A stretch of 64,000 nucleotides of DNA from contig JAEUVD010000033.1 of the NCBI GenBank assembly GCA_016787065.1, forward strand, positions 1 through 64,000, read 5' to 3'. Positions 2,769 through 54,428 of the stretch are shown here, in pieces. The notes under the pieces are model-generated. The model saw only the letters and a list, made by a program, of their open reading frames with translations. It had not been told where the DNA came from and searched no databases. The position numbers were made by a program, and so were the translations under genes. The DNA is from Chitinophagaceae bacterium. GTDB lineage: Bacteria; Bacteroidota; Bacteroidia; Chitinophagales; Chitinophagaceae. The first letter of the stretch is position 1, and every line of letters starts with the position of its first letter.

Positions 2769-4157
2769 TTATTTTGTTCGAATCAGTTTCCGGGTTTGAA
2801 CGGATTGGTTTGTTTTTATTTTTAATACATACATCCCTTCTGGTAAATGGTGGAGTTCAAGCGATTTTTTACTATCAAGTTGTTTATACACTAACTCACC
2901 ATGGAGGTTAAAAATTAGAACTTCTTGGAAAGGTAGTTTTGAAGAAATAACCACTTGTTCATCTACCCGTGAAGGATTGGGATATACCAAAATATCTTGT
3001 TGTTCAACAAACTGTATTTCCGTAGGTGTGCAACCAATGCTATTCACACTTGCCGGAAGCAATACATTTCCACCTGAGGTTCCTGAACCTGTTTGTCCGT
3101 AATTATTTTTACCCCAACCCCATGCCGTTCCATCTGATTTGATTGCTTCCGAAAAATACCAACCTGCACCAACATGGCTCCAACTGCTACCTATACCAAT
3201 TTGAGTAAGCGTATTTAACGCAACCGTTGTTCCATTACCCAAAGCGCCATAGCCATTGTAGCCGCATACATATAAATCGCCATTGGTGGTAACCGCTAAA
3301 GTATGTGAGGAACCTCCAATGATATTTGCCCAAGCATGTAAGGTGTCAATCAAAACAGGTGTTAATTGATTTGTTGTATTGCCATTACCGAGTTGTCCGT
3401 AATTATTAGTACCCCAAGCCCATAAAGAACCGTTTGTTTTTATGGCAAATGTATGGGCATCACCACAAAACACTTTAGCCCAATCGCTATCGGTTCCTAC
3501 TTGGGTGGGCACTAAAACATTGGATGTTGAATTAACTCCAACTTGCCCTGTTGTATTATAACCCCAACCCCACAGCGTACCGTTCGATTTAAGTGCCATG
3601 CAATGTCCGGAGCCACCTGCAATTTGAGCCCAATTACTATCGGTTCCTACTTGAGTTGGTAAAATTAAAACTTGCGTAGCCGAAGTGGTACCATTACCAT
3701 GTTGTCCGTAACCATTATGTCCCCAAGCGTAAATTTTTCCATTTGTTTTTAGGGCAAATGAGTTGTTACCGCCGGCAACAGCTTGGAGCCAATTGTTATC
3801 GGTACCAACCATGGTAACTGCGCTTAAATTAACGGTATTGGCATTGCCAAGTTGCCCCCAAAAATTATATCCCCATGCCCATAAGGTGCCATCATTTTTT
3901 AGTGCAAGAATATGTTGATCACCACCTGAAATAGTTGACCAAGAGGTGCCGGTTCCTATTTGTGTTGGTGAGGTTGATGTTCCGGAAAAACTCCCATTCG
4001 CAAGTTGTCCGTAATTATTATTTCCCCATCCCCAAAGAGAACCATCCGTTTTTAGAGCAACAAAATAATCACCTCCACCACCAAGTTTACTCCAGCATTG
4101 TGGAAAAGCAGTTGTTGTTAGTAATATGGCAATGATAAAAAGTACAATTCTTTTCAT
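2769..4157 (-). CDS. Secreted RCC1-repeat beta-propeller protein with T9SS sorting domain
   Basis: The 462-residue product starts with a signal peptide (MKRIVLFIIAILLTTTAFPQ). It then has about seven RCC1-type repeats of roughly 50 residues, each with a core like ALKTDGSLWGWGNNNYGQLG, over residues 20-375; together these should form a beta-propeller. The last 75 residues are a T9SS type A sorting domain: VYPNPS, an EVLIFNLHGELVY strand, the LPEGMYVLKI motif and a basic tail. In this family that domain directs export through the type IX secretion system and anchoring or release at the cell surface. It is transcribed away from the large LamG protein. A binding or adhesive surface role is likely, but the ligand is unknown. 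Confidence 0.88.
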   Translation of the reverse strand: MKRIVLFIIAILLTTTAFPQCWSKLGGGGDYFVALKTDGSLWGWGNNNYGQLANGSFSGTSTSPTQIGTGTSWSTISGGDQHILALKNDGTLWAWGYNFWGQLGNANTVNLSAVTMVGTDNNWLQAVAGGNNSFALKTNGKIYAWGHNGYGQHGNGTTSATQVLILPTQVGTDSNWAQIAGGSGHCMALKSNGTLWGWGYNTTGQVGVNSTSNVLVPTQVGTDSDWAKVFCGDAHTFAIKTNGSLWAWGTNNYGQLGNGNTTNQLTPVLIDTLHAWANIIGGSSHTLAVTTNGDLYVCGYNGYGALGNGTTVALNTLTQIGIGSSWSHVGAGWYFSEAIKSDGTAWGWGKNNYGQTGSGTSGGNVLLPASVNSIGCTPTEIQFVEQQDILVYPNPSRVDEQVVISSKLPFQEVLIFNLHGELVYKQLDSKKSLELHHLPEGMYVLKIKTNQSVQTRKLIRTK

Positions 4158-17452: not shown

Positions 17453-18250
17453 ATGCCACCCAAAAACTTCACTATCACCGAAATAAACAAAATTAAACTC
17501 CAACAGCCTATGGAGTTTGTTTTCATTCAAGCAAAAAATCAACGCTTTCTTTTTCAAGAGCAGGATGCTTCACCGTTTAAACATGATACCAGCCAAAAAA
17601 TTGAATTTACAAACGATTTTTACCTCTGTGCCTTCCAAACCACACAGGAATTCTGGCAATTGGTTGCGAAAGGGCATTCGAATTTAGCCGAGAACCCGAG
17701 TCAATTCAACTATCCAACCCGACCGGTAGAATGCATAAGTTGGTTGGATGTACAACACTTTTTGACAGTGCTCAATGACCTTTGGCAAACGAAGGAAGGC
17801 TTTACCTTGGGTGAAGCAAATAGCCAAAAACCAGGTGGTGTGTTTCAACTCCCCTCTGAGGTGCAATGGGAATATGCTGCCCGAGGTGGGCTTGAGCAAT
17901 CTCCCTTGCTTTTTGCCGGATCTGATCAGGCAGATGATGTTGCTTGGTTCTCAAGGAATGCGAACCAAACAACTATGCCGGTAGGTTTAAAGCAAGCCAA
18001 TGCCTTAGGATTGCACGATATGAGCGGCAATGTGTGGGAATGGTGTGGCAACGATTTTCAACATATTTCTACGGATGGAGAATCTGGTATCACTCATGCA
18101 GAAAAAACTAAATCGCTACGGGGCGGCAGTTGCTGGTACAAGGCCGGGGACTGTCGGGTGCGCCATCGCTTCAACTTCCACCCCGACTTCCGCAACATCA
18201 GCATCGGTTTTCGGCTCCTGTTTGTTCCCAGTTCATCAACCGCAGGCTGA
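17453..18250 (+). CDS. DGR target 1: FGE-sulfatase/C-type-lectin-fold protein with variable C-terminus
   Basis: The 265-residue product has the formylglycine-generating-enzyme-like (SUMF1) fold used by many DGR targets as a variable lectin scaffold. Landmarks are the shared N-terminal block FTITEINKIKLQQPMEFVFI, FYLCAFQTTQEFWQLV, RPVECISWLDVQHF, LPSEVQWEYAARGG, MPVGLKQANALGLHDMSGNV and WEWCGND. The variable C-terminus begins at LRGGSCWYKAGDCRVRHRF and ends GFRLLFVPSSST. The catalytic cysteine arrangement of true FGE enzymes is not evident, so a binding role is more likely than catalysis. There is no signal peptide or membrane segment, so it should act in the cytoplasm. The DGR core and the first Roc-COR-TIR gene follow. 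The last 122 bases of homology to the template are annotated separately. Confidence 0.9.
   Translation: MPPKNFTITEINKIKLQQPMEFVFIQAKNQRFLFQEQDASPFKHDTSQKIEFTNDFYLCAFQTTQEFWQLVAKGHSNLAENPSQFNYPTRPVECISWLDVQHFLTVLNDLWQTKEGFTLGEANSQKPGGVFQLPSEVQWEYAARGGLEQSPLLFAGSDQADDVAWFSRNANQTTMPVGLKQANALGLHDMSGNVWEWCGNDFQHISTDGESGITHAEKTKSLRGGSCWYKAGDCRVRHRFNFHPDFRNISIGFRLLFVPSSSTAG
18114..18235 (+). repeat. DGR variable repeat VR1
   Basis: This 122-bp segment aligns to the template at 19762-19889. In the first 65 alignable bases I count nine substitutions at template adenines (for example AAC to TTC, TAC to TGC) and one elsewhere (AAT to AAG). The 3' end, ATCGGTTTTCGGCTCCTG followed by TTTGTTCCCAG, is identical to the template and should be the initiation (IMH-type) end. 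It encodes the exposed C-terminal residues of target 1. Confidence 0.9.
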
Positions 18251-18259
18251 GGGAGGGCA

Positions 18260-18286
18260 GGCAAGCCGACGGGAGGAGGCTAAGCC
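18260..18286 (+). other. Stem-loop downstream of VR1
   Basis: Just after the target stop codon, GGC (18260-18262) pairs with GCC (18284-18286) and AGCC (18264-18267) with GGCT (18278-18281), around a GGGAGGA loop. It is the weakest of three similar post-VR structures but keeps the same CAAG...GGAGG layout. Such inverted repeats next to the VR are known to aid target recognition in studied DGRs. Confidence 0.5.
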
Positions 18287-18329
18287 GCTCGACCGAAGCA
18301 ATTTTTTCGTATATATAAAAAATAAAACC

Positions 18330-18764
18330 ATGATGCAATTAAAAATAATAAGTGTGCCAGTTATAGGTGGTGAGATGGAAACAGAAACAATAAATGTTTG
18401 GATAAAACAAAGCAAAGTAATTTCATTAGATAAACAATTAGTTTGTGTTGGAAGTATGTACTACTGGAGTTTCTGTTTTCAGTTTTTAGAGGGAGCGATT
18501 CCGGGCCGAAATTTAAAATATCCGGAAAAAGTAGATTACCGCATGGTGCTTGAGGAGGATGTGTTTAAACGATTTGCCGCTCTAAGGGAAATAAGAAAGG
18601 AAATAGCAAAGGCTGAAGCTATACCCGCTTTTGCAATTTTTACCGATGCCGAATTGGCGGAAATGGCAAAAGTTGAAATACTAACATCCGAGGTCATGCA
18701 AAATATTCAAGGTATCGGAGAAAAGAAAATTGAAAAATATGGAAGTAAATTTTTAAACAGATGA
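18330..18764 (+). CDS. HRDC-domain DGR accessory protein
   Basis: The 144-residue product starts at the ATG at 18330 (a second ATG follows directly); the longer frame that begins upstream runs out of frame through the variable repeat and is not real. The C-terminal half is an HRDC nucleic-acid-binding domain: FAALREIRKEIAKAEAIPAF, IFTDAELAEMAKVE, IQGIGEKKIEKYGSKFL. The N-terminal 70 residues (IISVPVIGGEMETETINVWI, SMYYWSFCFQFLEG) are not recognised. Its stop overlaps the reverse transcriptase start as ATGA, which implies translational coupling. HRDC proteins are known in some DGRs in the position otherwise held by the Avd accessory protein. It presumably helps bind template RNA or the target during retrohoming. 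Confidence 0.85.
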   Translation: MMQLKIISVPVIGGEMETETINVWIKQSKVISLDKQLVCVGSMYYWSFCFQFLEGAIPGRNLKYPEKVDYRMVLEEDVFKRFAALREIRKEIAKAEAIPAFAIFTDAELAEMAKVEILTSEVMQNIQGIGEKKIEKYGSKFLNR

Positions 18765-19951
18765 AAAGGGAAGCAAATTTAATCGAACAGATTGCCGATA
18801 CTCAAAATTTGTATTGGGCCTTTTGGAAAGCTAAACGTGGAAAAAATTCGAATAGTCAGGTTATTAAATTTCGTGAAGATTTGTATGTCCAAATTTTACT
18901 TTTACGTGATGAAATACTTAACGGAAAAATAGAAGTAGGGAACTATCATTTTTTCAAAATATTTGATCCCAAAGAGCGACAAATATGTGCTGCTCCATTT
19001 CGTGAACGTGTTTTACACCATGCTATCATGAATATTTGTCATCAAAATTTCGAGAAATTTCAAACACCTGATTCCTTTGCTACTCGTCAAGGTAAAGGAA
19101 CTTATGCGGCTGTATATCGTGCTTTAAGTATGCAAGGGAAGTTCGATTATTTTGTAAAAATTGACTGTAAAAAATACTTCGATAGTATTGATCACGGCAT
19201 TTTAAAAATGCAACTAGTAAGACGTTTTAAAGATGAACGTTTTTTAGAACTCCTTTTTAAAATAATAGATAGTTATGAAACCACTGTTGGTAAAGGACTA
19301 CCGATTGGCAATTTAACCAGTCAGTATTTTGCAAATCACTATTTAGCACATGGAGATCATTTTTTAAAGGAGAAGAATAAACTTCCTGCTATGGTGCGCT
19401 ATATGGATGATCTTCTTTTATGGCATAATAATCCTAAACACTTAGCGGCAATTAGTACAACTATTGAAGATTGGTGTTACAGTCAATTGGCACTTACATT
19501 TAAACATCGATATATGAATACTACTAAACACGGTGTTTCCTTCCTAGGGTTTTACTTATGCAAACATCATATTGAACTTAGCCGAAAAAGTAAACAGCGG
19601 TTAATTTATAAATATAATAGTATTCAGAAAGATTATAAACAAGGTATTTTGAGTGAAAAACAATATAGCACCAAACTAGAGAGCATTTTAGTGCGACCAT
19701 GTAAAGCAAGAACATTTCATTTTAGAAATAAACTTTTTCGGAATATAAACGAAGGTACAAACGCTACGGGGCGGCAGTTACTGGAACAATGCCAGGAACT
19801 GTCGGGTGCGCAATCGCAACAACAACCATCCCAACAACCATCCCAACAACCACAACATCGGTTTTCGGCTCCTGTTTGTTCCCAGCTCAAACTTATTTTT
19901 AAAGATGAACCGTTTGTATTTCCAATCTGTGGCTCCGGCTCAGTAAATTAA
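18761..19951 (+). CDS. DGR reverse transcriptase
   Basis: The 396-residue protein has the reverse transcriptase motifs in order: RERVLHHAIMNI, TRQGKGTYAAVYRAL, KIDCKKYFDSIDHGIL (first catalytic Asp), the DGR-typical GLPIGNLTSQYFANHYL in place of the GxPQG motif of group II introns, YMDDLL (catalytic Asp pair) and GVSFLGFYL. It would copy the template RNA with errors at adenines and drive cDNA homing into the variable repeats. The domain proper ends near residue 330. The remaining 65 residues (ATGRQLLEQCQE and a Gln/Pro-rich run) are read through the template repeat in a frame different from the one used in the targets, so the TR lies inside this gene. The start overlaps the HRDC gene by four bases. 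Confidence 0.95.
   Translation: MKREANLIEQIADTQNLYWAFWKAKRGKNSNSQVIKFREDLYVQILLLRDEILNGKIEVGNYHFFKIFDPKERQICAAPFRERVLHHAIMNICHQNFEKFQTPDSFATRQGKGTYAAVYRALSMQGKFDYFVKIDCKKYFDSIDHGILKMQLVRRFKDERFLELLFKIIDSYETTVGKGLPIGNLTSQYFANHYLAHGDHFLKEKNKLPAMVRYMDDLLLWHNNPKHLAAISTTIEDWCYSQLALTFKHRYMNTTKHGVSFLGFYLCKHHIELSRKSKQRLIYKYNSIQKDYKQGILSEKQYSTKLESILVRPCKARTFHFRNKLFRNINEGTNATGRQLLEQCQELSGAQSQQQPSQQPSQQPQHRFSAPVCSQLKLIFKDEPFVFPICGSGSVN
19762..19889 (+). repeat. DGR template repeat (TR)
   Basis: This 128-bp segment matches the 3' ends of three target genes (VR1 18114, VR2 24149, VR3 51221). Read in the target frame it encodes LRGGSYWNNARNCRVRNR and then an Asn-rich run, mostly AAC codons, the usual design of a mutable template. 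It is 6 bp longer than all three VRs because of a near-tandem AACAACCATCCC duplication (about 19817-19842), and has T where all three VRs have G (19790). It overlaps the end of the reverse transcriptase frame. Confidence 0.92.
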
Positions 19952-19956
19952 TCACC

Positions 19957-19999
19957 ACCCGGATGGCGCTAGTAACAAGATTGAAAAGGCTGTCCGGGT
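19957..19999 (+). terminator. Stem-loop after the TR, possible terminator or end of template RNA
   Basis: ACCCGGA (19957-19963) pairs with TCCGGGT (19993-19999), extended by TGGC/GGCTG with two wobble pairs, around a loop of about 21 nt. AATTTTAAAA follows. It begins 5 bases after the reverse transcriptase stop and ends 12 bases before the Roc-COR-TIR start. It could terminate or process the template RNA. Confidence 0.5.
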
Positions 20000-20011
20000 A
20001 ATTTTAAAACC

Positions 20012-23000
20012 ATGAAGAACTTCTTATACATACTAGAAAACTTAAAACTCCAAGCTAAGGAAGAAAAAAAGGAAGCCGGAAAGAAGGGCATAGTAACATC
20101 TCAATCCGAAATATTTTGGGATGAAAGGAATATCGCAAAGGGCGCATCTGATATTCGTTATTACATAGATGAGCATGAGTTCCATCTTCATCTTTCGGAT
20201 ACTGAAATATTGGATGATGCGGCTTGGAAAAAAATCATGGTGGCTATCAAGCAAGATAAGCTGGATCAAAAGATAAGGGTATTGTATCTTGCTCGTAACG
20301 GGTTAAGCCATTTTCAGTTAGAAGATTTTACTAAGCTTGAACTCTTAAATATTTCCGGTAATCAAAAACTAGAATCCCTTACACTTAAAAACCTACCTGC
20401 AATACAACGTGTAGAAGCCGCTCATAGTAAACAATTGGAAGTTGTAACCATGGAAGGAAATTTCCCGTTCTTAACCAAAATAGACGTCTCCAATGGGGCT
20501 ATCAAAGAAGTTCATTGGCGTAAAGCCGAACTTCCAGCTTTACAGTACTTCTTTGCCTTCCATAACCCTGATTTACATATACAATGGGGTAGTGCATTAG
20601 ATAAGATCGAGATGATTATGGTTGATGAAGCCTGTCGCATCGAATCGGGTATTTTACCTTCTCTAAGCAAAACAGGAAACGACTTACGCAACTTTCTAAA
20701 TAGCACCTTACAAGATATTGATAAAGGTAAAGGAGTACAACAATTCAATCTTCTCAAACTTATTTTTATCGGCAATACCACGGCAGGAAAATCTACGTTG
20801 AGGCGTGTTCTATTAAGTGAAAAGAAAAAACGTAATGAAGGCAGTACCCATGGTGTTATTCTATTTAATAAAACTATTAGGGTGCGCAAAGGCAAAGAAT
20901 CGAAGGATGTCGTAATACAGGGTTTTGATTTTGGTGGACAAGATTATTACCATGCTACTCATCTACCGTTTTATCAAAAACGAAGCTTAACCATTTTAGT
21001 GTATGGGAATACAAATTTCAACGAAGAACATCCGGATCCTGCCTTGGCATTTACCACCGGTCTAGTTACCTCCGGCAAAGGAAAAAAAGCAAAGCTTAGA
21101 GAGGAAGTCATGTATCCGCTGAACTATTGGATGAGTAGTTTAAAATTTACCAAAGAAGAAGAAAAAAAATCTACTCATGAGGAACAAAAGGAATCAAGAG
21201 CTAATGCTGCACTTTCAACGCGGCAAGAAAGTGCGAAGGATAATAGTATAACGAATCCTGAAGTATCTATTGTAAAAAATTATTCTTACGACAAAATTGA
21301 GGTGGAATCTAAACTGGCCCTTGTTCAAAATCTAAGAAAGGGTGTTCATCCTTACGAACTTAATATACTTAACATAAAACAAATTAAGCATATCCACTTA
21401 AGCAGTGTAGCATCTTACAATTTTGATGAACAAGATGCAGAAGCCTTTACCTGGCTTTCAGAAAATATTTTCGACGCCGCTTTCCCCGAAACATACACCA
21501 AAAATAATACAGCTTTGCAAAAAGCCCTTATCAGTACGGGCCATGTAATTTATTCTGCTACAGAAATTAAAAAGTACGTCAACGAAAACTACAAGGATAC
21601 AGAGCTAGAAGCAAGTTTAGAGTACCTGCATAACTGTCATGAAGGCTATTATTTTCGTCCGAAAAAAGATTCGGCTGTGTCCTTCTATATTGCCGATATG
21701 AAAACCTTCTTTTCCTGGATACATGATGATGTATTACATGAAGATTTGATTGCACAAGGTTATTTCAGCAAAAATGAATTCCAAAAGAAACCGCACATCA
21801 TCAAACATTGGGATAAGCTGTTATGCTTTTTACAAGAAGAGAAGATCATCTTTCCGGTGAAAGAAGATCAGGATCAAACCCATGCCACGCAGGCAGAAGA
21901 ACGCTATGTGGCTCCGGCTTACTTGCCTATCCCTATATCCAAGATTGATAACTTATTATTAGATTCCTTTAATACGCCTGATTGCATTTTTGAGTTTCCC
22001 GACTTTTTTCATTCGAATATCATCATGATGATTATTGATGGTTTCATTCCTCACTTAATTCATGATCCAAATGAACGAACGTATTTGCTTTGGAAGAATA
22101 AAGTAATATTAGGTGAATCGAAAACAGATGAAACCACTTCCGAAAAAACCGATAAGGCTCTCCTGTTGATCGAGTTGAAATTTCCCGGAATCGATGGCAG
22201 CGAGGTAAGGCTGCCACAACTCAGTATTTCACGCAACCAATCAGGCTTTGTAAAAGATAGTTTGTTTAAAGAAGTATTTGATTTTATAAAGAAGGAAGTG
22301 AGTGCGTTTCAGTGTACCATCCGAATTAAAACTCGTTTAGGAAAGTATATTCCGTTTACTTGTTTAGATCAAAAGAACATGCTTCAAGGCAAAGCGAAAA
22401 CAAATTTAATTTTTCATGAAGATACTTTTTACTCGAAATCAGATTTCAGGCACTTTATGGAAGATAAAATAAACGAACCTACTAAAATCTTCATTGCTTA
22501 CTCCCGCCATGATCTGGCTTATGTGGAAGAACTCTTACTTCACCTGCATCATTATGAGGCGGAAGGTGAAGTAGAAGTATTTTATGATAAACGACTTTCG
22601 GTAGGACAAAAATGGGATGAAGAAACCAAGCATCATCTCATTACCTCTGATTTGGTGCTATGCATGGTATCGCCGGAAATGTTAGCTACTGAAATAATTA
22701 CACAAATTGAAATACCTACGGCCCATCGGGAAGGCATACCCATTATACCGGTTATTTTACGTGATTGTTATTGGACTCAATTGCCCATCGATCGCGATAC
22801 GAGTTGGTTAGGCGATTATAATGCGTATGATAAAGCTACCGTGTTACCATCCGATCGTTATGCTCGTGAAACACAATGGATGCACTTAGCTGAACAACTC
22901 AGTAAAAAACCAACACGCAACAAAGGAGATGCTCAAGTTAGGAGCAATGAATTAAGTATCGGTAAGTTGCCCTCTAACTCCTGTCTTATTTTTTCGGAGG

Positions 23001-23413
23001 AAGACCAAGCCTATGCCGACGAATTGAAACAACATCTTGCAGCCTTGAACGAGGATGACCGAATAACCTTTACGGAAATAGTTGTAAAGAAAACAACCAA
23101 GGTTTTGAGCAAAGCGGTCATGCAACATCTGCACGAAGCCGATACCCTGTTGTGTTTGCTTTCTTCTACTTTATTAGCAACGAGTATTTTCCGACAAGAT
23201 TTCTTGCAGCTAGCTGCTCAGCAACAAAAAACGTTAGACACGGTGATACTGCGCGAATGTGCTTGGCAAAAAATAGGGGCTCACCTATACTTGTATAATA
23301 AAGGACAGGTTTTACCGCCCGACCGCTATGCGCGCGAAGCACATTGGCTAGCCTTGGCTGAACTACTTGTAAAGGGTATACTAAAACTTAAAAACAACGT
23401 AACGCATGAATAA
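20012..23413 (+). CDS. Roc-COR-TIR protein 1 (LRR-like N-terminus, second degenerate TIR)
   Basis: This 1133-residue protein combines leucine-rich-like repeats (about 85-215; KLELLNISGNQKLESLTL) with a Roc-type GTPase domain: P-loop GNTTAGKST near 254 and G3 motif FDFGGQDYYHATHLPFY near 304. A charged linker of about 100 residues follows, then a COR-like region (FFHSNIIMMIIDGF, LLWKNKVIL, LLIELKFPGIDG, LSISRNQSGFVKDS). A TIR domain covers about 823-965 (TKIFIAYSRHDLAYVEE, VFYDKRLSVGQKWDEETKHH), with the W-x-E-E region that in active TIR NADases holds the catalytic Glu. A second TIR-like copy (about 988-1125) lacks that signature. The G4 position reads LVQNLR, not NKxD. It is probably an effector or relay coupled to DGR target 1; NAD cleavage is inferred from family knowledge only. 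Confidence 0.85.
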   Translation: MKNFLYILENLKLQAKEEKKEAGKKGIVTSQSEIFWDERNIAKGASDIRYYIDEHEFHLHLSDTEILDDAAWKKIMVAIKQDKLDQKIRVLYLARNGLSHFQLEDFTKLELLNISGNQKLESLTLKNLPAIQRVEAAHSKQLEVVTMEGNFPFLTKIDVSNGAIKEVHWRKAELPALQYFFAFHNPDLHIQWGSALDKIEMIMVDEACRIESGILPSLSKTGNDLRNFLNSTLQDIDKGKGVQQFNLLKLIFIGNTTAGKSTLRRVLLSEKKKRNEGSTHGVILFNKTIRVRKGKESKDVVIQGFDFGGQDYYHATHLPFYQKRSLTILVYGNTNFNEEHPDPALAFTTGLVTSGKGKKAKLREEVMYPLNYWMSSLKFTKEEEKKSTHEEQKESRANAALSTRQESAKDNSITNPEVSIVKNYSYDKIEVESKLALVQNLRKGVHPYELNILNIKQIKHIHLSSVASYNFDEQDAEAFTWLSENIFDAAFPETYTKNNTALQKALISTGHVIYSATEIKKYVNENYKDTELEASLEYLHNCHEGYYFRPKKDSAVSFYIADMKTFFSWIHDDVLHEDLIAQGYFSKNEFQKKPHIIKHWDKLLCFLQEEKIIFPVKEDQDQTHATQAEERYVAPAYLPIPISKIDNLLLDSFNTPDCIFEFPDFFHSNIIMMIIDGFIPHLIHDPNERTYLLWKNKVILGESKTDETTSEKTDKALLLIELKFPGIDGSEVRLPQLSISRNQSGFVKDSLFKEVFDFIKKEVSAFQCTIRIKTRLGKYIPFTCLDQKNMLQGKAKTNLIFHEDTFYSKSDFRHFMEDKINEPTKIFIAYSRHDLAYVEELLLHLHHYEAEGEVEVFYDKRLSVGQKWDEETKHHLITSDLVLCMVSPEMLATEIITQIEIPTAHREGIPIIPVILRDCYWTQLPIDRDTSWLGDYNAYDKATVLPSDRYARETQWMHLAEQLSKKPTRNKGDAQVRSNELSIGKLPSNSCLIFSEEDQAYADELKQHLAALNEDDRITFTEIVVKKTTKVLSKAVMQHLHEADTLLCLLSSTLLATSIFRQDFLQLAAQQQKTLDTVILRECAWQKIGAHLYLYNKGQVLPPDRYAREAHWLALAELLVKGILKLKNNVTHE

Positions 23414-23490: not shown

Positions 23491-24282
23491 ATGGAATCAA
23501 AAAACTTTACCATAACCCAAATCGGTGATATCGTGCTTAAACAACCCATGCCATTTATTTTTATTGAAGCGAAGGGTAAAACCTTTTTATTTCAGGAAGA
23601 TGATAAAAGTGGTTTTATGGATATTGATATGGAGCCCAAATCCATTCAGTTCAAAAACAACTTCTATCTCTGCGCCTACCCTTGTACCCAAGAGTTTTGG
23701 CAGGCTGTTGTTTCGCAAACCGGAGGACATGATTTAGAGAGTAGTCCCGTAAGGTCTAAGGGACTTACCCGCCCGGTGGAGAATGTAAGTTGGCATGATA
23801 TTAAACTTTTTATTAGTCTGCTTCATCATCTACTTCATAATGAAAAGTTGTTTGCAGGCAATCAGGTAATCAAACTCAAAGGAGGCTTTAATCTTCCCTC
23901 CGAAATACAATGGGAATATGCAGCACGTGCCGGAGGAGCGTTTTTGTTTGCCGGTTCAAATCAAGTACAAGATGTGGCTTGGTATGATGGTAATAATGAT
24001 TTACATACCATGCCCGTAGGACTCAAAAAACCGAACGCTTGGGGTTTGTTTGATATGAGTGGCAATGTGTATGAATGGTGTGCGAATAATTCCAACGAGT
24101 TGCCTGAGCATGGTGAGGCAGGGGATATGGACCAAGATAATACTGTTTCGCTGCGGGGCGGCGGTTGCTGGGACGGGGCCAGGAGCTGTTGGGTGCGCAA
24201 TCGCTACTTCATCCGCCCCGACCGCCGCATCCGCCTCATCGGTTTTCGGCTCCTGTTTTCTCCCAGTTCATCAACCGCCTAG
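23491..24282 (+). CDS. DGR target 2: FGE/C-type-lectin-fold protein with variable C-terminus
   Basis: The 263-residue product is a paralogue of target 1 with the same landmarks: FTITQIGDIVLKQPMPFIFI, FYLCAYPCTQEFWQ, RPVENVSWHDIKLF, LPSEIQWEYAARAGG, MPVGLKKPNAWGLFDMSGNV and YEWCANN. The variable tail is LRGGGCWDGARSCWVRNRYF...GFRLLFSPSSST. There is no signal peptide, so it should be cytoplasmic. It lies 77 bases after Roc-COR-TIR 1 and is followed, after a strong stem-loop, by Roc-COR-TIR 2, reproducing the target/effector pairing. No operator palindrome is present in front of it, so it may be read from the upstream promoter. Confidence 0.9.
   Translation: MESKNFTITQIGDIVLKQPMPFIFIEAKGKTFLFQEDDKSGFMDIDMEPKSIQFKNNFYLCAYPCTQEFWQAVVSQTGGHDLESSPVRSKGLTRPVENVSWHDIKLFISLLHHLLHNEKLFAGNQVIKLKGGFNLPSEIQWEYAARAGGAFLFAGSNQVQDVAWYDGNNDLHTMPVGLKKPNAWGLFDMSGNVYEWCANNSNELPEHGEAGDMDQDNTVSLRGGGCWDGARSCWVRNRYFIRPDRRIRLIGFRLLFSPSSSTA
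24149..24270 (+). repeat. DGR variable repeat VR2
   Basis: This 122-bp segment aligns to the TR. In the first 65 bases I count 11 substitutions at template adenines and two elsewhere (AAT third base to G, CGG to TGG). The third base of every AAC codon is kept as C. The conserved 3' end ATCGGTTTTCGGCTCCTG is identical to the TR; the next bases (TTTTCTCCCAG) match VR3 rather than the TR. Confidence 0.9.
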
Positions 24283-24333
24283 GCTACACCGACAAGCTAC
24301 CCGTAGGGACGGAGGGTAGCAAGGCGGTGTAGC
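24283..24333 (+). other. Two-tier stem-loop downstream of VR2
   Basis: GCTACACCG (24283-24291) pairs perfectly with CGGTGTAGC (24325-24333), and the inner GCTACCC (24296-24302) with GGGTAGC (24314-24320). It begins right after the target stop codon, 12 bases past the VR. A T-run follows (24338-24344), so it may also act as a terminator. Its arms differ in sequence from those after VR3 while keeping the fold. Confidence 0.85.
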
Positions 24334-24432
24334 ACGAATTTTTTTGAAAATGCTAAAAAGGAAAGGCTTCAGAATTTGCACTAAAACAACAAGAAATAAT
24401 AGTTTAAAATAAATGTTTAAATCATCAATTAA

Positions 24433-27400
24433 ATGAGCACCAAAGGAAAAAAAATTAGTGAGCTTTCGGAGAACTATATTTTGGTTGATAATATGGAAGA
24501 ATTACTGTTTGCAACAGTCATGGTTTCATTTTCAGAGGATGATTATGAAGCGGCACCCAAAGGAATTAGCTACCGTTATTTTTGGGATGGTAAGGAATTA
24601 GGGATACATATTGTGGATGAAAATTTTACAGATGCGGATTGGGAAGAATTAAAAACATCCTTATCAACCAAATTCGAGACCTTGCAAGTTTTGTATCTGA
24701 GTGCAACGGGGATGCAAAAAATGAGTTTTAAAGATTTGCGTCAATTGAAACAGATCTTTTTAAACAATAATAAAAACCTAGAAACGCTAGAATTAAAAAA
24801 TGTACCTAGTTTACAAATTGTTGAGGTTGCTTGTTGCAGGCAATTGTACGAGGTAAATATCATTGGAGATTTCCCAATTTTAGAGAAGTTTGATATTTCC
24901 GTTGGACAAGTTGAAACCATCTTATGGGATTGTGCCATCTTACCGAAACTCTTCTACTTGAATGTTCAAAAAAATAAACTAACGGAATTGAATTTAGAAA
25001 AGATGCCAGCGCTGAAGTATGTATTTGCGCGGGGTAATGCCATGCAAAATATTCTATATCCAAAGTCCTTAGATGAAATTTCAATAATAGAAGTTGATAC
25101 TACTTTGATTGCGGATGAAGATGAAGTGAAATTTCTGCAACTAACAGATTTAGACTTACAACAGGCAATTCGAAATAAATTTATGCGCAAAGCTTCAGGT
25201 ACTGTGGCTGTTTATCGCATTAAGCTCATTCTCTTGGGTAATACTACGGTGGGTAAAACGTCGCTCAGAAAAATTCTTCTTTCTCCAAAAGGCAAGGAGA
25301 ATAAGGCGGCAACGTTTAACCAAAATAGTACGCATGGAGTGTACATTTTCAATAAAACCTATCAAACAAAAGATGGGAAGACTATTTATATGCAAGGGTT
25401 TGATTTTGGAGGACAGGATTATTACCATGCTGCGCATTTACCCTATTATGATCATCACGCTTTAAATGTATTGGTTTACGGTTTTGGTGAGGATATTATA
25501 AATCCGGAAAAATTTACCGCTTATCAATTTGGTTTAAAGCTTAAACCTAAAAAGCTGAAACAACCTAAAGACCCATTTAAACAGAATGAGGATGATGACG
25601 AGGAAACAATTAAAGAGGAATTCGATATTGTGTACCCGATACCTTATTGGGTAGGAAGTTTGAAGAATAAAGCGATTGTAGATTGGTACAAAGCAAGACA
25701 GAATAAAATTGCGAATTTTTTATCTTCACAACAGGAACAAGAAATGGAGATAAAACAGGATACTTCTGAAGAGATCTTAATCATTCCACAATCGAAACTT
25801 GAACTCATTCAAAATAAACGAGCAAATCATAATTTGTTGGAGCTTGATAATTTCTCTTTAAAGAATAATCCTGAAGTGAAGATTGGAGACATTGCCCACT
25901 TCGAGTTTGTTACTCAAGGATCCAAGGTTAAAGATTGGTTAGAAGAAAAGATTTACAAGTATGGTGTGACTCGAGAAACATCACTTGCTACACTTGATTT
26001 TGAACTCGGGCAGTTCTTTCAAAAAAAAGCAAATAAAGTACTGTTTTCAAAAGAGGATTTAATAAAACTTCCGGAGGTAAAGAAAACATTTGATTTAGAA
26101 CCCACCGAGTATATTGGCAAAACGGACGATGAAAAGGAAGCAATACGAATGCAACGATTAACCAACGTACTAGAAAGTTTACATAATTACCAATTCGGGT
26201 ATTTTTTCAATCCTGATAAAAACATGGATTCGGCCTACTTTATTGCTAATCAGGAGAAATTTTCGAAATGGATACATAACGATATTCTATCCGAATCAAA
26301 AGCGCTCAAACATGGCTATATACTTAGAACGGATATTCTGAAAATTGTCAAAAATCCTTGCGAAGGCAATCTAGATGAAGTACTCCGTTTTTTAATGGAT
26401 CAACATATTTTATTTCGGGTCAAAGGGAATGAAAATAAATGGGTAGCACCATCGTATTTGCCGCCTTTGAAACGTACGGTGGATAGGCTTTTGTTAGAGT
26501 CCTTCGATTTGCCCGATTGTACCTTTACTTTCAAGGAGTATTTTCATTCGAACATCTTATTGATGATTATTGATCATTTTGAAAAGCGTTTGGTAAGCGA
26601 TCAAGGCGAGAAGAAATTTTTATTATGGAAGAATAAGGTCTTGTTACATGAAACGCCTATAGCCTTTGAAGAAGAACCAAAAGAAGGCGATACAAAACCA
26701 AAGGGGTATAAAAATCTTCGTCGTGAAAAGGCCTATTTACTCATCGAATTAAAATATCCGGGGATGGAGGGTTTTGAAGAGGAATATCCGCAATTATGTA
26801 TATCCCGAAATCAATCCGGTTATATAAAAGACAGTAATTTCAAGGAAGTCTTTAAGTTTATTTACGATTATGTTTTTCCTTTTAATCCAGATATTCAAGT
26901 AAAAACACGCTTTCATAACTACATTCCGTATGAGAGTATCTTACAGCATAACTCGAAAGAGCATAAAGAGAAAAGTGATTTGATTTTTCATAATAATACC
27001 TTTTATTCCAAATATGATTTTCGTTTATACTTACCCGACATCAAGGAGGAGCCTACTAAGATATTCATTGCTTATTCGCGTCATGATTTAGCTTATGTAG
27101 AGGAATTAGTGCTGCATTTACGTCCACATGAATTACGCGGTGATGTGGTAGTTTTTTATGATAAGCGTTTATCGGTAGCCGAGAAATGGGATGAAGAAAC
27201 CAAACATCATTTGGTAACATCGGATGTAGTGGTATGTATGGTTTCACCGGAGATGTTAGCTACTGAAATTGTAACACAAGTAGAACTACCTTTAGCACAA
27301 GAAGAGGGCATACCGATAGCGCCGATCGTGCTTCGCTCTTGTGATTGGACGCATCTGGAGTTGAATAAAAACAACCACTGGTTCGGCGATCACAATGCCT

Positions 27401-27510
27401 TTGATAAAGCGAATGTATTACCATCAGATCGTTATTCGCGAGAACAGGAATGGATGCTCTTTGCGGAGCAGTTGAAGAGGAGGGTAAAGCGCTCGCGGAA
27501 GGGTGGTTAA
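24433..27510 (+). CDS. Roc-COR-TIR protein 2
   Basis: The 1025-residue protein has the same layout as its two paralogues. It has leucine-rich-like repeats (about 75-225; LKQIFLNNNKNLETLEL) and a P-loop GNTTVGKTS near 268. The G3 motif FDFGGQDYYHAAHLPYY is near 323, followed by an acidic insertion. The G4-position LIQNKR, near 458, has Asn-Lys but lacks the guanine-specifying Asp. A COR-like region (FHSNILLMIIDHF, LLWKNKVLL, LLIELKYPGMEG, CISRNQSGYIKDS) precedes a C-terminal TIR domain (about 874-1020; TKIFIAYSRHDLAYVEE, VFYDKRLSVAEKWDEETKHH). There is no signal peptide. It follows target 2 by 150 bases. Likely role: signal relay and TIR effector controlled by the diversified partner, inferred from synteny in three copies. 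Confidence 0.87.
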   Translation: MSTKGKKISELSENYILVDNMEELLFATVMVSFSEDDYEAAPKGISYRYFWDGKELGIHIVDENFTDADWEELKTSLSTKFETLQVLYLSATGMQKMSFKDLRQLKQIFLNNNKNLETLELKNVPSLQIVEVACCRQLYEVNIIGDFPILEKFDISVGQVETILWDCAILPKLFYLNVQKNKLTELNLEKMPALKYVFARGNAMQNILYPKSLDEISIIEVDTTLIADEDEVKFLQLTDLDLQQAIRNKFMRKASGTVAVYRIKLILLGNTTVGKTSLRKILLSPKGKENKAATFNQNSTHGVYIFNKTYQTKDGKTIYMQGFDFGGQDYYHAAHLPYYDHHALNVLVYGFGEDIINPEKFTAYQFGLKLKPKKLKQPKDPFKQNEDDDEETIKEEFDIVYPIPYWVGSLKNKAIVDWYKARQNKIANFLSSQQEQEMEIKQDTSEEILIIPQSKLELIQNKRANHNLLELDNFSLKNNPEVKIGDIAHFEFVTQGSKVKDWLEEKIYKYGVTRETSLATLDFELGQFFQKKANKVLFSKEDLIKLPEVKKTFDLEPTEYIGKTDDEKEAIRMQRLTNVLESLHNYQFGYFFNPDKNMDSAYFIANQEKFSKWIHNDILSESKALKHGYILRTDILKIVKNPCEGNLDEVLRFLMDQHILFRVKGNENKWVAPSYLPPLKRTVDRLLLESFDLPDCTFTFKEYFHSNILLMIIDHFEKRLVSDQGEKKFLLWKNKVLLHETPIAFEEEPKEGDTKPKGYKNLRREKAYLLIELKYPGMEGFEEEYPQLCISRNQSGYIKDSNFKEVFKFIYDYVFPFNPDIQVKTRFHNYIPYESILQHNSKEHKEKSDLIFHNNTFYSKYDFRLYLPDIKEEPTKIFIAYSRHDLAYVEELVLHLRPHELRGDVVVFYDKRLSVAEKWDEETKHHLVTSDVVVCMVSPEMLATEIVTQVELPLAQEEGIPIAPIVLRSCDWTHLELNKNNHWFGDHNAFDKANVLPSDRYSREQEWMLFAEQLKRRVKRSRKGG

Positions 27511-50427: not shown

Positions 50428-51354
50428 ATGGAAAACTTTACCATTACCCATATCGGAGACTATGAATTATTACAACCCATGCCCTTTATTTTTATACCGG
50501 CGAAGGGCAAGGAGTTTACTTCAGAATTGAACAGGAAAAAAGGGGTGTTTGCTGATGATTTTTTTATGGCGGCTTACCCTTGTACTCAGGAGTTTTGGAG
50601 GGAAGTAATTCTTCATGTTCAAAAAGCACCGAAATCACCTCAGGTTATTGAATTGGAGGAGAAGATAGGGGAATTGAAAATTGAAAAAAATAAAGCGGTT
50701 AAAAGTCGGGACTTTGAAATGGCAGCTTCTTTGCGCGATATAGAGAAGAAATATCAGTATGAGCTTGAATTACTTAATGGTTTAGAATTGAATCCTAAAC
50801 CATCTCGTTTCCGGGGTGATACTAAACCGGTAGAAAAAGTGTCTTGGTATGAAGTAAGTCAATTTGCCAACACCTTAAATACACTTTTGGAAAACGGAAT
50901 TTTTGGAGAGCAGAATACTAATAATATCTTAAAGTCTATCACTATAAATGGTGCGTTTATGCTGCCTTCTGAAGCGCAATGGCGTTATGCGGCACAAGGT
51001 GGAGTAACACATGAAAATTTTGAATTTCCCGAAACCGACTATCTGCCGGATGTGGGTTGGTTTGAGGAGAATGCCAAAGAAATTATGCCCGTAGGGTTGA
51101 AGCAACCCAATGCATTACAGCTTTACGATGTATGTGGTAATGTTTGGGAATGGTGTGGGAACGAGTATGATCAATATCCATTAGATGGAAGTACTGGAGA
51201 GAATAATGGAAATTCCAAAACTCTGCGGGGCGGCGGTTACTGGGACGAGGCCAGGTACTGTCGGGTGCGCGATCGCTACCACGACCTCCCCGACAACCGC
51301 AGCAACAACATCGGTTTTCGGCTCCTGTTTTCTCCCAGTTCATCCACCGCTTAA
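50428..51354 (+). CDS. DGR target 3: FGE/C-type-lectin-fold protein with UVR-like insertion
   Basis: The 308-residue product (from the ATG at 50428; an upstream in-frame start adds 20 residues over the promoter and is rejected) is the third paralogue. It has FTITHIGDYELLQPMPFIFI, FFMAAYPCTQEFWREV, KPVEKVSWYEVSQFANTLN, LPSEAQWRYAAQGG, MPVGLKQPNALQLYDVCGNV, WEWCGNE and the variable tail LRGGGYWDEARYCRVRDRYH. Unlike the other two it carries an insertion of about 50 residues (near 75-125) whose core, EKNKAVKSRDFEMAASLRD, strongly resembles the UVR motif of ClpC and UvrB. It has its own operator-controlled promoter and is followed by Roc-COR-TIR 3. It lies about 31 kb from the template repeat. No signal peptide. 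Confidence 0.9.
   Translation: MENFTITHIGDYELLQPMPFIFIPAKGKEFTSELNRKKGVFADDFFMAAYPCTQEFWREVILHVQKAPKSPQVIELEEKIGELKIEKNKAVKSRDFEMAASLRDIEKKYQYELELLNGLELNPKPSRFRGDTKPVEKVSWYEVSQFANTLNTLLENGIFGEQNTNNILKSITINGAFMLPSEAQWRYAAQGGVTHENFEFPETDYLPDVGWFEENAKEIMPVGLKQPNALQLYDVCGNVWEWCGNEYDQYPLDGSTGENNGNSKTLRGGGYWDEARYCRVRDRYHDLPDNRSNNIGFRLLFSPSSSTA
51221..51342 (+). repeat. DGR variable repeat VR3
   Basis: This 122-bp segment aligns to the TR 31 kb upstream. In the first 65 bases I count nine changes at template adenines and one clear change elsewhere (AAT third base to G), plus a G to T at the very edge. The 3' end ATCGGTTTTCGGCTCCTG is identical to the TR. After it, TTTTCTCCCAG matches VR2. Confidence 0.9.
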
Positions 51355-51358
51355 GCGA

Positions 51359-51401
51359 GGCTGGCAAGATGCCCGGAAGGATGGAGGGTATCGAGCCAGC
51401 C
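51359..51401 (+). other. Two-tier stem-loop downstream of VR3
   Basis: GGCTGGC (51359-51365) pairs perfectly with GCCAGCC (51395-51401), and the inner GATGCCC (51368-51374) with GGGTATC (51386-51392), apart from one mismatch. It begins four bases after the target stop. The fold and the GGAGG loop segment match the structure after VR2 although the arm sequences differ. Confidence 0.8.
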
Positions 51402-51446
51402 GAGCATACGAAAAATAGTATAATGTTAAGTAAATAAAACAGCAAT

Positions 51447-54428
51447 ATGTCTACTGAAATTTTGATCAAGCAAGAATTTAAGCAAGAAAAGAATATAGAA
51501 AAACTAAAATGTAGTAGGAGTGCAGTAAACTTCGACGATAAAATAATCAAGACATCAACAGATAAACGCTTTTATTGGGATGGTGAACGCTTTGGCGTGC
51601 ACGTATCGGGCTCCGAAACGAATCCTTTGAATATTCCTCAACTATTTGCTTCTTGCAGCGATATGTTACCCTTTTTAGAAGTGCTCTACATTGGTAATAG
51701 TTCGCTGCATCAATTTGATACCGTTCAGTTTAAACAGGCAGGGTATGATTTATCAAGCTTGCAATATCTGTGTTTACGAGATAATGCTACTTTGGAAAAG
51801 ATTCATTTAAATAACTTGCCAAAACTTGAAATACTGCATGCTGATTGTTGTGAACAGTTAAATTATGTTAGTCTTAACGGTGATTTCTCCAAACTGAAAC
51901 AACTCGATGTATCGTGGTCCGTAATCAAAGAACTCAATTTAGCTAAAGCTATATTACCTTCATTACGTTATATATTAGCTAGGACAGAAGGAGCAACTAA
52001 AATTTTATGGCCAAGCAAACTAGAAAATATCATTCAGATAGATATTGCTGATAATTCATTACTCGAAGATGATATTAAACCCATTGTAAAATTAAGTGGT
52101 TACGAATTGCGCAAAGCGCTTAACGCCTACCTTAAAATTTACAATAAAGGCAAAGGAGTCGACAAAGAATATCAATTAAAACTGATTTTAATTGGTAATA
52201 CGGGAGCAGGTAAATCTACCCTTCGCAGAATTTTACAATCGGAAGAAGGTAAGGCAGCCGAAGCTGCAAAAGACCACGATGATGGCACACATGGCGCTGA
52301 AATCTTTAGTAAGACGTTTAGTTATTCGAATGAAGAAAACAAGATTAACGATTTACCGCAAGAAGTGTATGTACAAGGGTTTGATTTTGGTGGACAAGAT
52401 TATTACCATTCTACCCATTTGCCCTTTTATGATAAGGAGGCGCTGAATATTTTGGTATTCGGACAAGATGAATTGCCGGAACTACCTTTCGATCCGGCTT
52501 GTGATTTTAAATTGAAAGGAAGAAAGGAACTAAACGAAAAGCACACGGAAAAAACAAACCAAGCAGATGTAGTCAACGATTCGGATATTTTGTATCCTTT
52601 GAATTATTGGATGGGGAGTTTGAGTTATCGTAAAGAGCGTGAACCCCAAAAAGAGAAGGTACATAACGAGAATTCAAATGCCTCAGTTGCTGATGAAGAA
52701 ACACATGCCTTGACTAGAGATTCTAAAGAAGATAATACTAGCCAAAACTCAACCTTAGAATTAATCCAAAACAAACGACAAAATCAGCCATCCTTGGAAT
52801 TAAATACCCTGCTTTTACGCAAACAGGAGCGTATTACCGTGGGAGATATTGTAGCCTTCGATTTTGAACAAGAAAGCGAAACGGTAAAAACCTGGTTGAA
52901 AAATAAAATTCGTGTTCATGCTAAAGTAAAAACGGTTGTAACAAAAGATAAAGAGGCCGCAACCATTTTGAAGGAACAAGAACAACATGTTTTTTCTTTC
53001 GACGAATTACTAATCCTGAATAAAACGAATAAGTGGTACGAAACTGAGGTTGATATACGTGAGGCCTTAAAACGTTTGGTAAGGCGACATGAGGGTTATT
53101 ATTTTCAACCCGACGAAACATTCAAAGAAGAATTTTTTATACCCAATATTTCTGATTTCTCGAAGTGGATTCATGAACATATTCTAACCAAGGATTTACT
53201 TGGGGATGGTTATTTTTCTGATGATGATATTCAAAAAGGGAAATCAAAAAAGTATGCTCGTTGGGCTATGCTATATTTAAAACGTGAGGATATTGTGTTT
53301 GATGTGAAGTATGATGTTATTGGTTTTTCCCCGAAGAAGGTAAAGGCCAAGTATGTTGCTCCTGCCTATTTGCCAATGGCCAAACCCGGCTTGGAGCAAC
53401 TCTTTTTAGATTCTTTTGATACACCCGATTGCATTTTTACCTTCGATCGTTTTTTTCATTCTAACATTATCATGATGCTCATTGCTTCGTTTAAGGATGA
53501 ATTAGTGAGTGAATCGGAAAAGAAGGAATACTTATTGTGGAAGAATAAGGTGGTACTCTATCAACAAAAACAACAAGGTAAAGAAAGGCTAAGCGATAAA
53601 GAACGAAATGAAAAAGCATTCTTATTAATTGAATTAAAATATCCGGGTATTGATGATCTAAAAGGGAGTAAACCACAACTGAGTATCTCGCGTAATTATT
53701 CAGGGTTTGTGCAGGACAGTCGTTTTCATGATGTGTTCAAATTTATTTATGATATGCTCTTTGTTTATGATCCGCAGGTTGAGGTTAAAACCAAGTTTGG
53801 TAATTATATACCTCATCAAAAGTTGGAAGAAACTTGTATCGGAAATAAAGAACGGAGTTATTTAATTTATCATGATCGGGTGTTTTATTCACGCTTTGAT
53901 TTTCGACATTTTTGGTTAGATGAACATAACTTAAACCCAACGAAATTCTTTATTGCATACTCACGTCATGATGTTGACTATGTGCACGAATTGATGTTAC
54001 ATCTTCAACCCTTTGTACACATGGGTAAAATACTCGTGTTTTATGATTTAGATTTAAGCATGGGCGAAAAATGGAACGCCGCTACTCGTCATGAATTAGA
54101 AACTTCCGATGTGGTGCTTTGCATGGTTTCACCTAATATGTTGAATACCTCCATTGTTATGGATGAGGAACTGCCTTTGGCGAATGATAAATATAAAATC
54201 ATAGTGCCCATCATTCTTAAACCGTGTAACTGGGATTTTCTTGAATTTAATAGAGGCTATAATTTGTTGACAGCAAATAACGCGTATCGCAAAGCGGAGG
54301 TACTTTCTTTCGATAGTCATAAACGAAATGAACAATGGAAAGATATTAGTTTGAAACTATCACAACTATTACCTAAGAATATTAATTGGGATAGAAAAGA
54401 ACCAACAAACGATTTACTTGATTTCTAA
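51447..54428 (+). CDS. Roc-COR-TIR protein 3
   Basis: The 993-residue product has leucine-rich-like repeats (about 85-215; LQYLCLRDNATLEKIHLNNL) and a P-loop GNTGAGKST near 249. The G3 motif FDFGGQDYYHSTHLPFY is near 311, followed by a charged insertion. The G4-position LIQNKR (near 439) lacks the specificity Asp. A COR-like part (FFHSNIIMMLIASF, LLWKNKVVL, LLIELKYPGIDD, LSISRNYSGFVQDS) precedes a C-terminal TIR (about 830-965; TKFFIAYSRHDVDYVHEL, VFYDLDLSMGEKWNAATRHE). In the TIR the W-x-x-x-T-x-x-E spacing is kept but the E-E of the paralogues reads A-A, so catalysis may be altered. It lies 92 bases after target 3. It is the most diverged of the three paralogues. Confidence 0.86.
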   Translation: MSTEILIKQEFKQEKNIEKLKCSRSAVNFDDKIIKTSTDKRFYWDGERFGVHVSGSETNPLNIPQLFASCSDMLPFLEVLYIGNSSLHQFDTVQFKQAGYDLSSLQYLCLRDNATLEKIHLNNLPKLEILHADCCEQLNYVSLNGDFSKLKQLDVSWSVIKELNLAKAILPSLRYILARTEGATKILWPSKLENIIQIDIADNSLLEDDIKPIVKLSGYELRKALNAYLKIYNKGKGVDKEYQLKLILIGNTGAGKSTLRRILQSEEGKAAEAAKDHDDGTHGAEIFSKTFSYSNEENKINDLPQEVYVQGFDFGGQDYYHSTHLPFYDKEALNILVFGQDELPELPFDPACDFKLKGRKELNEKHTEKTNQADVVNDSDILYPLNYWMGSLSYRKEREPQKEKVHNENSNASVADEETHALTRDSKEDNTSQNSTLELIQNKRQNQPSLELNTLLLRKQERITVGDIVAFDFEQESETVKTWLKNKIRVHAKVKTVVTKDKEAATILKEQEQHVFSFDELLILNKTNKWYETEVDIREALKRLVRRHEGYYFQPDETFKEEFFIPNISDFSKWIHEHILTKDLLGDGYFSDDDIQKGKSKKYARWAMLYLKREDIVFDVKYDVIGFSPKKVKAKYVAPAYLPMAKPGLEQLFLDSFDTPDCIFTFDRFFHSNIIMMLIASFKDELVSESEKKEYLLWKNKVVLYQQKQQGKERLSDKERNEKAFLLIELKYPGIDDLKGSKPQLSISRNYSGFVQDSRFHDVFKFIYDMLFVYDPQVEVKTKFGNYIPHQKLEETCIGNKERSYLIYHDRVFYSRFDFRHFWLDEHNLNPTKFFIAYSRHDVDYVHELMLHLQPFVHMGKILVFYDLDLSMGEKWNAATRHELETSDVVLCMVSPNMLNTSIVMDEELPLANDKYKIIVPIILKPCNWDFLEFNRGYNLLTANNAYRKAEVLSFDSHKRNEQWKDISLKLSQLLPKNINWDRKEPTNDLLDF

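Follow-up and report, generated by a model that had tools for sequence, protein, structure and literature searches.

The window analysed here, a stretch of 64,000 nucleotides from an assembly of 4.1 Mb (55 contigs, estimated completeness 100%), contains one diversity-generating retroelement (DGR). It comprises an HRDC accessory gene, a reverse transcriptase (RT) gene, one template repeat (TR) and three variable repeats (VRs). At positions 17453-20001, the lectin gene that carries VR1 is followed by HRDC, RT and TR, and two further targets are remote; all window features described below lie on the forward strand. The HRDC-domain DGR accessory gene (18330..18764, E 1.5e-17) is located directly upstream of the RT ORF (18761..19951, RVT_1 with E 2.1e-16), and an HRDC homologue was found in 33 of 35 RT relatives, nearly always directly before the RT. 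The RT belongs to the DGR clade and carries the SQ and YxDD motifs of this clade (GNLTSQ at 183, YMDD at 214). Its best match in the PDB is 8ub7 (E 3e-40), which we take to be the RT of the Bordetella phage BPP-1 DGR.

All three VRs are placed at the 3' ends of genes encoding proteins of the C-type-lectin fold, as indicated by a domain scan, a structural match and a paralogue alignment. These are: VR1 (18113..18235) in the FGE/C-type-lectin gene 17453-18250 (VP1), VR2 (24149..24270) in the FGE/C-type-lectin gene 23491-24282 (VP2) and VR3 (51219..51342) in a third paralogous lectin gene, whose ORF extends to 51354. The FGE-sulfatase domain was detected in VP1 and VP2 (the two proteins scanned), the third lectin was aligned as their paralogue, and in the PDB VP1 is matched best by TvpA, the variable protein of the Treponema DGR (2y3c, E 2e-16). 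An AlphaFold model of the third lectin with its two paralogues had a mean pLDDT of 40.7 and was set aside. Each of the three lectin genes is paired with a TIR-type gene: an LRR-Roc-TIR protein, recognised by a domain scan, is encoded downstream of the RT and TR (20012..23413), and LRR-Roc-TIR-like ORFs, assigned by shared repeat families and sequence likeness and not by a domain scan, follow VR2 (24433-27510) and VR3 (51447-54428). Hairpins of the kind that is typical just after DGR targets are present 3' of VR2 (24283..24333, z -5.1) and VR3 (51359..51401, z -3.0), whereas the signal in the region after VR1 (18236-18310) is weak (z +0.6). The TR, the VRs and the pieces downstream of the VRs (18113-18300, 19760-19889, 24149-24335, 51219-51410) have a GC content of 54-68%, compared with 36% for the window and 32% for the RT gene.

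Several known systems share parts of this organization. The TvpA/HRDC-type DGR of Treponema denticola (PMC4891356; PDB 2y3c) also diversifies FGE/C-type-lectin variable proteins, has an HRDC gene adjoining the RT, and uses one TR for several remote targets; there, however, the accessory gene lies between the TR and the RT, while the window has HRDC, RT and TR in that order, with an RT frame that extends across the TR. A mismatch in length between TR and VR is not known from the Treponema system. The BPP-1 DGR shows the same adenine-specific change from TR to VR, the same IMH/IMH* polarity and a hairpin after the target (PMC3240598), but it has Avd instead of HRDC and the order VR-TR-RT. Finally, DGR-linked conflict systems (PMC7159879, PMC10907252) contain DGR-diversified FGE-type domains beside NTPase- or TIR-type partners; the lectin genes of the window differ in that each is paired with a separate LRR-Roc-TIR-like gene.

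The TR (19760..19889) ends in the IMH*-type sequence CCCAGCTCA, and the corresponding IMH in the VR is CCCAGTTCA. The TR-VR polarity mark (CAG followed by CTCA versus CAG followed by T) is conserved, and most HRDC-type relatives show the same polarity. RT homology ends at 19756, and the frame then continues through the entire TR to a TAA at 19949-19951, which adds a Q/P-rich read-through tail of about 65 residues. In 35 relatives whose RT is followed by a TR on the same strand, the RT ORF ends ahead of the TR or no further than 16 bp into it; overlap of the TR with the RT ORF is nevertheless a recognised layout (DiGReF group 3, PMC3521204). The +1 frame has a TAA at 19746, so that a shift by one base a little further upstream, real or erroneous, would explain the read-through. 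The read-through itself, two probable G-to-A changes in the TR and the decayed structured RNA after the TR (see below) had been overlooked in the earlier note.

As expected for a DGR, the substitutions between TR and VRs are concentrated at TR adenines, with 12-18 of 31 adenines changed per TR-VR pair, against 3-4 of 71 other sites. The TR core (19767-19868, from CGG GGC GGC to GGT TTT CGG) consists of 34 codons (102 bp), though, and each VR core of 32 codons (96 bp). The earlier note had pointed to this shortfall of 6 bp, to a T at 19790 of the TR (AAC AAT GCC) where all three VRs have G (AAG, GGG, GAG), and to a CAT in the TR, with T at 19829, where the VRs read CNC (CAC, CGC, CTC, thus C in all three); a base-by-base comparison agreed with it on each point. 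It had also noticed a near-tandem duplication in the TR, which proved to be a perfect tandem array (19820..19852, period 12, 2.8 copies, 100% matches) and the source of the extra length. Its statement that one CCC and one CAC codon are missing from the VRs is correct as to the 6 bp, but the identity of the codons depends on the alignment, since a 12-bp duplication of CATCCCAACAAC (19827-19838 and 19839-19850) combined with loss of the 6 bp AACAAC is an equally exact parsing.

Two further sites, at which the TR has A and all three VRs have G, had been passed as products of adenine mutagenesis, and this seems improbable. One is position 19833 (AAC in the TR, GAC in all VRs), where the adenine spectrum points to a probable G-to-A change in the TR; the other is a CAT/CAC in the TR that reads CGC in all VRs. 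Adenines change to G in relatives at a frequency of about 19% overall (22% at CAA, 31% at CAC), so that three Gs at one adenine would arise by chance with a probability between about 0.007 (base spectrum of the relatives) and 0.03 (CAC context), and three Gs at both sites with a joint probability of about 5e-5 to 3e-4.

For comparison, 56 stretches surrounding relatives of the RT were taken from other genomes and the TR was paired with a VR in each, and the main statistics were drawn from 36 loci of the same TR type, with 49 TR-VR pairs. The TR core (RGG to GFR/GLR) has 32 codons in all 36 loci; the TR of the window deviates from this pattern (a regularity recognised in the present analysis, and not a published criterion), and its three VRs conform to it. 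Non-adenine mismatches between TR and VR are rare in the relatives (19/3363, 0.6%): there were none in 34 of the 49 pairs, one in 12, two in 2 and three in 1, and 44 of the pairs were free of gaps. Non-adenine differences common to all VRs of a locus, which in the window amount to two substitutions and 6 bp, were found in none of the 10 relatives with two to four VRs, which speaks against chance. The nearest partial precedent (locus L063) is one C-to-T difference common to 2 of 4 VRs. Single VRs of a few relatives have codon-multiple length changes in the AAC-rich core (-12, -3, -3 and +3 bp; L058:6937-7057, L059:5157-5283, L094 and L098), in line with RT slippage.

These comparisons make it very probable that, in this HRDC-type DGR, the only template has changed since the latest homing that its three targets still show. 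This was one of the options offered in the earlier note, and it is strongly favoured, as the VRs have the standard length and sequence of the family and the TR does not. Judged from the sequences, the TR and not the VRs is the derived member, because the VRs share their 32 codons with 36 of 36 relatives and no relative with several VRs shows differences common to all of them. In DGRs, the RT reverse-transcribes the TR RNA, making errors at adenines, and the resulting cDNA takes the place of the VR; extra TR sequence can be transferred as well (PMC3521204). Non-adenine marks thus travel from TR to VR, and VRs that lack the marks of the TR predate those marks.

Based on the three VRs and the family pattern (with the two G-to-A changes resting on probability), the older TR probably read ...AAC AAC AAC CAC CCC GAC AAC CGC AAC AAC AAC ATC..., and the PDNRNNN pattern, present in many of the 36 relative TRs, supports the presence of G in it. 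The non-adenine positions of the VRs agree with this older TR at 203 of 204 sites; the three VRs differ from it by 0, 1 and 0 non-adenine changes, while against the present TR they show 3-4 non-adenine substitutions plus 6 bp. Adenines changed relative to the older TR number 13, 18 and 10 of 28, respectively. The VR-bearing genes upstream of the repeats are only 46-51% identical as protein (60-64% as DNA), and yet the VRs agree mutually at 67-68 of 68 non-adenine sites, from which we infer that a single template served to rewrite all of them once the genes had diverged.

A minimal path from the older to the present TR, listed here in no particular order, would comprise about four substitutions (one C-to-T, two G-to-A and one G-to-T), a tandem duplication of the 12-bp sequence CATCCCAACAAC and the loss of the 6 bp AACAAC. 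The new template would never have been written into any target, or no such copy would have survived. Four substitutions at 68 sites in the TR, against 1 at 204 in the VRs, represent a significant excess when the two probable G-to-A changes are included (Fisher p 0.015); with the two certain substitutions only, p is 0.16, and with indels 0.001. Similar non-adenine mismatches beside a full-length RT are known from the 'sloppy' or non-functional DGRs with B-to-N changes of the DiGReF collection (PMC3521204), but in those cases the mutations are described as lying in the VR, whereas in the window they are assigned to the TR, set it apart from all three VRs and are accompanied by a change in length.

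The older TR was also sought in other genomes. No relative carrying it was found by a DNA search in 296 genomes of the family, and searches with the RT in the order, class and family, where the nearest RTs are about 50% identical, returned no close relative with it; the same was true of phages and of IMG/VR and GTDB contigs (searched with RT peptides and the 19-mer CTGTCGGGTGCGCNATCGC). Eight matches to this 19-mer in IMG/VR or GTDB contigs were inspected, and all were unrelated sequence.

A template that changed after its last visible homing may belong to a DGR that is dead, with a drifting TR and VRs kept by ordinary selection on the lectins. This is a sub-case of the preferred explanation, so that their probabilities overlap, and its chance falls a little short of even. 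Part of the evidence for it comes from the RNA that follows the template. In most HRDC-type relatives (e.g. L050:8950-9089, reverse strand; loci L039-L098), the TR is directly followed by a conserved RNA of about 140 nt (again a pattern from the present analysis, and not a published criterion), in which 15 of 19 predicted pairs are backed by two-sided changes. Its motifs are GCCGGATGGC, TGAACAG and a terminal hairpin with GTAG...GAA, and it had no Rfam match in the two relative loci tested. This RNA may be the priming or RT-binding part of the template RNA. The spacer of BPP-1 is comparable to it in this possible role. A model of the RNA scores 13 held-out loci of the same type at 27-93 bits, but the window at only 15.3 bits, a weak full-length match (19883..20001) that starts exactly at the TR end and was found only by an unfiltered search of 601 bases (default filters miss it). 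In this degenerate copy the first hairpin is absent and the terminal one is kept at about 19957-19999. The sequence CCGGATGG at 19959 was considered as a displaced first hairpin and rejected, since the model assigns it to the terminal hairpin, and a mir-393 Rfam match in the window is weak and well below the gathering score.

The loss of the first hairpin, the RT frame through the TR and the change of 4 of 56 near-invariant RT residues, which exceeds that in every HRDC-type relative except the distant L069, are all compatible with a dead element, and full-length-RT DGRs with many non-adenine mismatches are regarded as possibly non-functional (PMC3521204). On the other hand, the RT and HRDC frames are intact, as are the RT catalytic motifs; the root-to-tip distance of the RT is ordinary, so that it is not fast-evolving overall; and both the IMH/IMH* mark and the hairpins after VR2 and VR3 are kept. 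Taken by their sequence features, these data are in keeping with a DGR that worked through most of its history and has a template region that loosened recently. We place the chances that it is now idle at about even, given the RT frame that extends across the TR and the partial loss of 3' structure in the template RNA.

An error of assembly or sequencing, or a strain-mixed consensus, at 19730-19850, with a true TR of 32 codons, is an improbable alternative, which the earlier note had also listed. The TR sequence comes from the assembly, a consensus may go wrong in a period-12 array, and the RT frame looks altered just before the TR, where the TAA at 19746 is in the +1 frame; slippage in the homopolymeric T run near 19735 could be the cause. 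However, reads are much longer than a 12-bp repeat, two to four unrelated substitutions would be required in addition, the extra 6 bp keep both frames, and the ORFs of 993-2225 aa nearby show no break.

A second, unseen TR (unassembled, plasmid-borne or lost), the other source proposed in the earlier note, is highly improbable as the writer of the three VRs. A TR of the standard form would account for all VRs at once, the assembly is split into 55 contigs and the action of other DGRs in trans is known (PMC10907252). Nevertheless, whole-genome probes with the present and the older TR matched only the TR and the three VRs (the next matches were of 18-23 bases, with E 0.2-0.8), and a single related RT was found in the whole genome; no other TR or related RT is therefore present in an assembly of estimated 100% completeness, and the present TR, next to the RT, agrees with the VRs along most of its extent. 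It is scarcely credible that homing from the present TR shortened the VRs because the RT slipped on AAC runs. The BPP-1 RT is reported to make indels of three bases or multiples thereof in AAC repeats (PMC12875486), and slippage-like indels of -12, -3, -3 and +3 bp occur in a few relative VRs, but slippage would have to remove an identical 6 bp in each of three independent homings, cannot yield T-to-G and T-to-C in all three VRs, and would have arrived exactly at the family standard.

A DGR template normally stays in step with its targets, since every round of homing resets the target. The template and targets of the window are out of step by marks that adenine mutagenesis cannot make. These marks constitute a tracer: any future VR with T at 19790 and 19829 and 34 codons must stem from the new template. 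Natural populations can thus be asked whether homing is ongoing, at what rate old alleles are replaced and whether a longer variable loop is tolerated by the lectin fold. In an active DGR, homing should lengthen the lectin loop by two residues, and this next step, which the earlier note had anticipated, is possible; the decayed appearance of the TR-associated RNA and the 32 codons kept by 36 of 36 relatives both speak against taking it for granted. A more far-reaching idea, which seems unlikely on the present sequences, is that the template evolves in length and content by tandem duplication in its AAC-rich core under read-through translation from the RT, and that the DGR is about to shift the whole immune-type lectin set to a new loop length at once; if so, template turnover would be a second, slower layer of diversification. 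Elsewhere in the window, an array of imperfect repeats with a spacing of about 150 bp is located at 3093-4094.
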